This document shows positions 41,501-48,899 of a DNA stretch of 64,000 nt, one piece after another (positions within the stretch are counted from its first letter, which is position 1; every line of letters starts with the position of its first letter). Origin of the DNA: Salvelinus alpinus (taxonomy: Eukaryota > Chordata > Actinopteri > Salmoniformes > Salmonidae); assembly GCF_045679555.1 (NCBI RefSeq), contig NC_092089.1:4687040-4751039 (forward strand). The letters are read 5' to 3'. Under the pieces are notes generated by a model that was given only the letters and a program-made list of their open reading frames with translations, was not told where the DNA came from and made no database searches. The translations under genes were made by a program, and so were the position numbers.

Positions 41501-44500
41501 TGCATTATCTAACTGGGGATAGCTAGCTAACATAACGTCACAGAGCATTATCTAACTGGGGACAGCTAGCTAACATAATGTCACAGAGCATTATCTAACT
41601 GGGGACAGCTAGCTAACATAACGTCATGATGCATTATCTAACTGGGGATAGCTAGCTAACATAACGTCACAGAGCATTATCTAACTGGGGATAGCTAGCT
41701 AACATAATGTCACAGAGCATTATCTAACTGGGGATAGCTAGCCAACATAATGTCATGATGCATTATCTAACTGGGGATAGCTAGCTAACATAACGTCACA
41801 GAGCATTATCTAACTGGGGATAGCTAGCTAACATAATGTCATAGAGCATTATCTAACTGGGGACAGCTAGCTAACATAACGTCAGAACATGATGCACCAG
41901 CCAGTTAACTTTCATTCTGAAATAACTTCATATTTCTGATTCAGTCAGATATTTGTTCAGAAAGACTTGAAATTGGTATGGGAGCTAACTAGCTGCTTAT
42001 CAAAGGTAGATAACTGGTTAATTTGACAACAAAACAAAAAAATCGACCAAACTTTTTCTTAATGTTTCTCAAAGTTACTGTAGCTGGCTAATTAATTTGA
42101 TCATGCTTTTGTGAAGCACCCGGTTTTATGCCGTTTTTGTCCACACGTCACCCTGTCAGCTACAGTAGAACCTGAACGACAGTGAACGACACGGGGGATA
42201 TGCTTTTTGGCCAACCAGAGCCGAGGTGAGAAGGTTCTAGCTAGCGTGTGTCCCTCTGTCCTACCAGGGCGAGAAGGTTCTAGCTAGCGTGTGTCCCTCT
42301 GTCCTACCAGGGCGAGAAGGTTCTAGCTAGCGTGTGTCCCTCTGTCCTACCAGGGCGAGAAGGTTCTAGCTAGCGTGTCTCCCTCTGTCCTACCAGGGCG
42401 AGAAGGTTCTAGCTAGCGTGTGTCCCTCTGTCCTACCAGGGCGAGAAGGTTCTAGCTAGCGTGTCTCCCTCTGTCCTACCAGGGCGAGAAGGTTCTAGCT
42501 AGCGTGTGTCCCTCTGTCCTACCAGGGCGAGAAGGTTCTAGCTAGCGTGTCTCCCTCTGTCCTACCAGGTTTTAATGACCAACTAACAGTGAGAAATGCC
42601 TTCCTCTCCAGCAACAAAACCAAACGATGTTGATGTCGTCAATATGACATGGAGAACAACACTGTGACGTGTTAACTTCTGTTTTTCCCTGCAGGCTTTC
42701 GACGACGCCATCGCAGAGCTGGATTCTCTGAGTGAAGACTCCTACAAAGACAGCACCTTGATCATGCAGCTACTGAGAGACAACTTGACAGTAAGTGTTG
42801 TGTACTAGACTCATAGTTCCCCTGCTGTCACTGGGCAGGCAGCTACTGAGAGACAACTAGACTCATAGTTCCCCTGCTGTCACTGGGCATGCAGCTACTG
42901 AGAGACAACTTGACTCATAGTTCCCCTGCTGTCACTGGGCAGGCAGCTACTGAGAGACAACTTGACTCATAGTTCCCCTGCTGTCACTGGGCAGGCAGCT
43001 ACTGAGAGACAACTTGACTCATAGTTCCCCTGCTGTCACTGGGTATGCAGCTACTGAGAGACAACTTGACTCATAGTTCCCCTGCTGTCACTGGGCAGGC
43101 AGCTACTGAGAGACAACTTGACTCATAGTTTCCCTGCTGTCACTGGGCATGCAGCTACTGAGAGACAACTTGACTCAGTTTCCCTGCTGTCACTGGGCAT
43201 GCAGCTACTGAGAGACAACTTGACTCATAGTTCCCCTGCTGTCACTGGGCATGCAGCTACTGAGAGACAACTTGACTCAGTTTCCCTGCTGTCACTGGGC
43301 ATGCAGCTACTGAGAGACAACTTGACTCAGTTTCCCTGCTGTCACTGGGCATGCAGCTACTGAGAGACAACTTGACTCATAGTTCCCCTGCTGTCACTGG
43401 GCATGCAGCTACTGAGAGACAACTTGACTCAGTTTCCCTGCTGTCACTGGGCATGCAGCTACTGAGAGACAACTTGACTCATAGTTCCCCTGCTGTCACT
43501 GGGCATGCAGCTACTGAGAGACAACTTGACTCATAGTTCCCCTGCTGTCACTGGGCATGCAGCTACTGAGAGACAACTTGACTCAGTTTCCCTGCTGTCA
43601 CTGGGCATGCAGCTACTGAGAGACAACTAGACTCATAGTTCCCCTGCTGTCACTGGGCATGCAGCTACTGAGAGACAACTTGACTCATAGTTCCCCTGCT
43701 GTCACTGGGCATGCAGCTACTGAGAGACAACTTGACTCATAGTTCCCCTGCTGTCACTGGGCATGCAGCTACTGAGAGACAACTTGACTCATAGTTCCCC
43801 TGCTGTCACTGGGCATGCAGCTACTGAGAGACAACTTGACTCATAGTTCCCCTGCTGTGACTGGGCATGCAGCTACTGAGAGACAACTTGACTCATAGTT
43901 CCCCTGCTGTCACTGGGCAGGCAGCTACTGAGAGACAACTTGACTCATAGTTCCCCTGCTGTCACTGGGCATGCAGCTACTGAGAGACAACTTGACTCAT
44001 AGTTCCCCTGCTGTCACTGGGCATGCAGCTACTGAGAGACAACTTGACTCATAGTTCCCCTGCTGTCACTGGGCAGGCAGCTACTGAGAGACAACTTGAC
44101 TCATAGTTCCCCTGCTGTCACTGGGCATGCAGCTACTGAGAGACAACTTGACTCATAGTTCCCCTGCTGTCACTGGGCAGGCAGCTACTGAGAGACAACT
44201 AGACTCATAGTTCCCCTGCTGTCACTGGGCATGCAGCTACTGAGAGACAACTTGACTCATAGTTCCCCTGCTGTCACTGGGCAGGCAGCTACTGAGAGAC
44301 AACTTGACTCATAGTTCCCCTGCTGTCACTGGGCATGCAGCTACTGAGAGACAACTTGACTCATAGTTCCCCTGCTGTCACTGGGCATGCAGCTACTGAG
44401 AGACAACTTGACTCATAGTTCCCCTGCTGTCACTGGGCATGCAGCTACTGAGAGACAACTTGACTCATAGTTCCCCTGCTGTCACTGGGCATGCAGCTAC

Positions 44501-48899: not shown

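Follow-up and report, generated by a model that had tools for sequence, protein, structure and literature searches.

The intron that follows coding exon 4 of a 14-3-3 gene of Salvelinus alpinus is largely occupied by a tandem array whose units are half coding sequence. The locus raises the question of how the end of a conserved exon came to be copied some 97 times beside its own exon-intron border, and of what such copies mean for the splicing of the gene. Judged from the DNA sequence, the array is probably an exon-border minisatellite, of the kind termed a "mirage"; it would have formed in place by chance and is likely splicing-silent.

The Host 14-3-3 Gene

The window (the whole stretch of DNA that was analysed, 64,000 nucleotides) contains the five coding exons of the 14-3-3 gene, four of which were found by tblastn while the fifth carries the stop codon:

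29244..29567, + strand: coding exon 1 (ATG at 29256), the parent of a 41-bp array described below (tblastn, borders)
32140..32263, + strand: coding exon 2 (tblastn)
36786..36949, + strand: coding exon 3 (tblastn)
42695..42790, + strand: coding exon 4, with acceptor ttttccctgcag and donor ACA/gtaagt at 42791 (tblastn)
48843..48899, + strand: coding exon 5, with stop codon

The joined product finds its best PDB matches among zeta/delta proteins (435.7 bits, against 425.6 for the best beta/alpha match), and PABPC1 adjoins the gene at approximately 60.5-63.4 kb of the window, a linkage typical of YWHAZ. Because of this best score and the PABPC1 linkage the gene is likely ywhaz, the name it bore in the original prediction; the margin is modest and the name falls short of proof, the assignment being drawn from scores and linkage rather than from a tree. 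The predicted N-terminus (29256-29300) exceeds the common 14-3-3 start, MDKxELVQ, in length and resembles a small in-frame duplication.

Intron 4 is 6,052 bp long and consists of tandem repeat over 99% of its length; introns 1-3 of the same gene are 58-70% tandem repeat. Approximately 43 copies of a pyrimidine-rich, acceptor-like sequence, TCTCTCTCTCTCTCTCCAG, occupy 29587-30398, beginning about 20 bp after the exon 1 donor. Eight other five-exon 14-3-3 genes have a fourth intron of 130-1428 bp with no tandem repeat call, and the exon 4 end has a single match in each of them. Across 11 other 14-3-3 loci (the same eight and three of epsilon type, 110 kb), with at least seven further loci lying outside the comparison, tandem repeats make up 1.6% of the sequence.

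The 52-bp Array in Intron 4

Tandem Repeats Finder places the 52-bp array at 42804-47842, with 97.1 copies at 98% matches in this one assembly, and most of intron 4 is thereby filled, as had been predicted. A 26-mer from the end of exon 4, ATGCAGCTACTGAGAGACAACTTGAC, has 98 matches at no more than two mismatches (73 of them exact), all on the + strand between 42764 and 47842; one is the authentic exon end and the other 97 are extra copies in intron 4. Across 100 shuffles the same search returned 0 matches, which bears out the proposal that the minisatellite grew in place from the exon 4 end. The exon segment is protein-identical and is present in 97 extra copies, so that the array does carry a conserved coding segment as claimed. 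Successive copies are spaced by 52 bp (n=90), 50 bp (n=6) or 73 bp (n=1), and with a unit length inside the 10-100 bp range and a long head-to-tail arrangement this is a minisatellite. The parts of the intron are arranged as follows:

42764..42789, + strand: parental 26-bp exon segment (MQLLRDNL + AC), the first of the 98 matches, ending one base before the exon 4 end
42790..42810, + strand: 21-bp donor block AGTAAGTGTTGTGTACTAGAC, made up of the final base of exon 4 and the 20 bases with which intron 4 opens, flanked by ACTTGAC and ACTAGAC
42811..42836, + strand: TCATAGTTCCCCTGCTGTCACTGGGC, the unit's intronic half where it first occurs
42837..47816, + strand: the 96 inner units that lack the donor block (52 bp long in 90 cases, 50 bp in 6)
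47817..47842, + strand: exon segment of the distal copy, the 97th, with no mismatch
47843..47863, + strand: donor block of the distal copy, altered at a single base (gtaagtgtC); its donor, at 47844, scores 6.91, as does the authentic one
47868..48721, + strand: second minisatellite of intron 4, 42-bp unit, approximately 20 copies
48722..48838, + strand: pyrimidine-rich array of 21-bp period, reaching the exon 5 acceptor

A stretch at about 48560-48625, inside the 42-bp array, is SINE-like. The inner units of the 52-bp array fall into ten distinct sequences in irregular order. When the genome was searched with the 52-bp unit, using a tool that skips very common words, the 97 matches listed all lay at this one place; the intronic half (24-bp core, at most one mismatch) matches only this array genome-wide, in 91 of 91 cases.

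The Missing Donor Block and the Splice Signals

At the authentic exon 4 the 26-bp segment is followed by the donor block and then by TCATAG; in the inner copies the segment runs straight into TCATAG or TCAGT, with no donor block between. A search of 42691-48850 finds the block at 42790 and 47843 only, meaning that it is kept by the authentic exon and the distal 97th copy and is missing from 96 of the 97 extra copies. The unit had been described as the exon end joined to the adjoining intron, which does not hold as stated: its other half does not adjoin the exon directly but skips the final exon base and 20 bases of intron beyond it, the donor included. The missing donor matters for the possible effect on splicing that had been suggested, along with possible effects on recombination and gene conversion. 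The junction 7-mer of the inner units is ACTTGAC in 89/96 and ACTAGAC in 7/96, the first inner unit being among the seven. As the donor block lies between these near-identical sequences and both products are found in the array, a slippage deletion is the likely cause of its loss. In 7/96 inner copies TAG stands at the position of the exon's TTG, so that gene conversion of the exon from one of these would create an in-frame stop; no such event is seen.

Splice donors were ranked by a simple frequency-based score. No inner unit supplies the donor block (0/96), and the GT sites of these units all stay below a score of 5; among the 202 GT sites of 42800-47870, only that of the distal copy does, and the next best in the array scores 4.57, at 43043 in one variant unit. 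Over the whole of intron 4 there are 33 donor-like sites with scores of at least 4, the authentic donor included, and CAG/gtcagc at 48191 in the 42-bp array reaches 7.32, above the authentic 6.91; given such sites, the absence of decoys alone cannot guarantee correct splicing. The commonest acceptor-like sites of the 52-bp array have pyrimidine fractions of 0.35-0.65, compared with 0.76-1.0 at the five real acceptors.

These measurements bear on the idea that the array is functional, its units or its distal donor regulating the splicing of exons 4 and 5, for example through a cryptic small exon formed from the last copy. The distal donor is intact, with a score equal to the authentic one, and YAG sites precede it; however, the poor pyrimidine fractions of the acceptor-like sites, a unit of 50-52 bp that is no multiple of three, and the eight other five-exon 14-3-3 genes that do without such an array make a regulatory role very unlikely.

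A Second Border Array at Coding Exon 1

The same gene has a second array on an exon border, at its other end:

27227..29260, + strand: exon-border array with units of approximately 41 bp, in which an acceptor is followed by the beginning of coding exon 1, start-codon position included

This array holds 48 extra exon-1-like starts besides the authentic one, preceded by CAG in 34 and by TAG in nine (43/48 together), and the commonest of its acceptors have pyrimidine fractions of 0.88-1.0. ATG occupies the start-codon position in 18/48; the 30 starts lacking it have AACCGTGG (29) or AACTGTGG (1). This array of acceptors represents another event of the type that gave the 52-bp array, in the same gene.

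Part of the gene is assembled a second time. An inverted copy of 17.9-38.8 kb of the window, with 14-3-3 exons 1-3, is located approximately 480 kb away on the same contig (4231040-4251760) and is 98.3% identical over 7,775 non-repeat bases, a figure that excludes the last 128-base block (85%). The exon-1 array counts 48.7 units in the window and 38.7 (45-bp consensus) in the inverted copy, be it allele or duplicate. The inverted copy ends at a gap of 100 N, and the base at which it breaks off is the one where the window's gap begins (100 N, 38847-38946, in intron 3), for which reason the copy is possibly allelic and not a duplicate. Past the gap of the inverted copy there is an array of 54-bp units extending over at least 18.9 kb.

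The assembly itself could be at fault, the 52-bp array being in truth absent or only a few copies long. The exon 4-5 region was found in a single assembled copy, with no second copy of the 52-bp array, and the N gap, where the inverted copy of exons 1-3 also stops, lies 3.7 kb upstream of exon 4. Such an artefact is nonetheless exceedingly unlikely: the 52-bp array is away from any gap, its ten inner unit types come in irregular order, and the sister 41-bp array appears in both assembled copies at differing lengths; the exact number of 52-bp copies may still be wrong.

Tandem Repeats across the Genome

Tandem repeats were measured in arbitrary stretches of 2.5 kb. The mean content is 23% over 19 stretches from other contigs, six of which exceed 20%, and 30% over 11 stretches far from the window on its own contig. 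The repeats are mostly minisatellites and are spread unevenly: many stretches have almost none, and several consist of little else. A content of 0.5-3% is quoted as typical (PMC5241972), and both means lie well above this. With arrays this common in the genome, some that are seeded on exon borders are to be expected.

Two of the nine borders of the host gene carry arrays. When the gene region's 13 array units were placed at random, at least two of the nine borders were struck in approximately 3% of trials, and in approximately 2% when all 39 array units of the window were used; these odds leave pure chance a little strained, in a test that is post hoc. A preference of arrays for donors was considered and rejected: the tandem-triple pattern AGGTRAGT is matched 14,134 times across the genome and its reversed form, the single control, 17,337 times, which is no enrichment in a count of matches rather than arrays (long arrays weigh more).

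Other kinds of sequence have also been amplified in the window. The units of the arrays at 7077-7556 and 9025-9488 resemble pieces of LINE open reading frames from the reverse-transcriptase and endonuclease regions, and it follows that array seeding is open to other sequence kinds; this suggests that mobile-element coding sequence also seeds minisatellites here. An uninterrupted frame of 1202 aa at 13814-17422 resembles a LINE-type reverse transcriptase.

The possibility that the window's contig is special, as a repeat-filled or sex chromosome, was likewise rejected. An earlier small sample gave 31-98% repeat at the first ten sites of the contig and a mean of 13% at ten sites elsewhere; in the comparison of the 11 far sites with the 19 elsewhere, from which six near-window sites (0.10-1.00) were left out, the contig averages 0.30 and the other contigs 0.23 (Mann-Whitney p = 0.13). 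The gene sdY is linked to the IRF-3 domain, and none of 34 matches to this domain falls on the contig.

Proposed Origin and Growth of the 52-bp Array

The array may be explained in four steps. A small tandem duplication over the exon 4/intron 4 border would first have produced a second exon end with its donor and first intron bases, and the authentic exon and the distal copy would be the two edges of this initial duplication. From the sequence of the junctions, an inner copy would then have lost its 21-bp donor block by slippage between ACTTGAC and ACTAGAC. The donor-less 52-bp unit would have expanded to 96 copies through slippage or unequal exchange and been homogenised. Finally, the authentic donor at 42791 would still be used and the whole 6-kb intron removed, the array being tolerated as neutral DNA; continued use of this donor is expected because the inner units have no good donor and only poor acceptors.

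From the exon segment through the donor block to TCATA, a single change separates the authentic copy from the distal one; beyond that point the two diverge, so that an insertion of filler or a later loss is needed beside a simple duplication. Derivation of the intronic half from the adjoining 42-bp array was rejected, the alignments being no better than those of shuffles (636 and 278 of 2000 were as good); since this half is also absent elsewhere, it would represent either original intron since lost or filler. Variation is not even along the array: the quarter of its units nearest the exon has 1.04 differences per unit, against 0.25-0.38 in the other quarters, when each 50-bp unit is counted as three. 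Part of this excess comes from the 50-bp units, five of the six being located in that quarter; in the 52-bp units alone the figures are 0.53 against 0.25-0.33. This no more than hints that turnover of units takes place mostly away from the exon.

Selection offers another cause for the missing donor: copies bearing a donor would have been mis-spliced, only a donor-less unit could have spread, and the array would be the scar of that selection. This account is possible, if doubtful. It fits the absence of the donor block from 96/96 inner copies, with the full score at both edges, and the partial loss of a signal from the 41-bp array as well, where 30/48 extra copies lack the ATG. However, one founder deletion followed by amplification yields an identical picture, the shortfall of tandem donors seen against the reversed pattern amounts to no strong overall avoidance in arrays, and the 41-bp array has retained CAG or TAG in 43/48 of its extra copies. 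A founder accident is favoured over selective removal as the cause of donor loss.

A broader proposal, and an unlikely one, is that exon borders are amplified often in this minisatellite-rich fish genome, that many genes have mirages, and that a unit sheds, as it spreads, the donors and start codons that would cause mis-splicing or mis-starting. If true, mirages would be a live source of intron growth, and reuse of a distal donor would make them a source of small new exons as well.

Comparison with Known Systems

Tandem repeats across exon-intron borders have been named "mirages" in amphioxus, and RT-PCR data for amphioxus Adh3 and globin are said to suggest undisturbed splicing (PMC3087553, PMC3902484). 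Both arrays of the host gene have the corresponding form. Their units span a border, with 26 bp of exon 4 and 26 bp of intron in one (the border bases deleted inside) and an acceptor with the start of exon 1 in the other; both also lie beside the authentic border, the first extra copy of the 52-bp array standing 47 bp past the parental segment and the 41-bp array entering exon 1. Mirage units in amphioxus likewise span a border beside the authentic one, and either the 3' or the 5' border may be repeated. Copy number differs between haplotypes in the amphioxus mirages; the indication here is indirect, a difference in the 41-bp array between two assembled copies that may be alleles or duplicates.

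The differences concern scale, signals and host. The amphioxus globin mirage BflGb6 has six and three units of 150-160 bp, and the Adh3 units measure 10-72 bp; the present gene has approximately 97 units in its 52-bp array and 48 in the array of about 41 bp; AG/GT is described as kept by many, not all, amphioxus mirage units, whereas the donor is absent from all 96 inner units here. The host is a fish gene rather than one of amphioxus, and its predicted splicing silence is read from simple donor and acceptor scoring. A literature search of limited depth, through sources seen in part, brought no fish mirage to notice, which does not establish priority. The array is a large addition to the known mirage kind, in a fish and with donor-less inner units; splicing-relevant sequence has been copied about 97 times within a conserved gene, and the reading frame is unbroken.

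A minisatellite in human IFI6 (6-16), reportedly described in Nucleic Acids Res in 1995, is said to supply multiple splice donors. The two arrays share their position on an exon end and donor; the IFI6 repeats reportedly supply donors, whereas the inner repeats here have lost theirs. With its 52-bp period, head-to-tail arrangement and 98% matches, the array resembles ordinary intronic VNTR minisatellites; unlike them, half of its unit is conserved coding sequence with a known single-copy parent. Most minisatellites are without a known parent, and because the parent here is a conserved exon, the phase of the unit, the deletion that made it and both edges of the array can be read directly.
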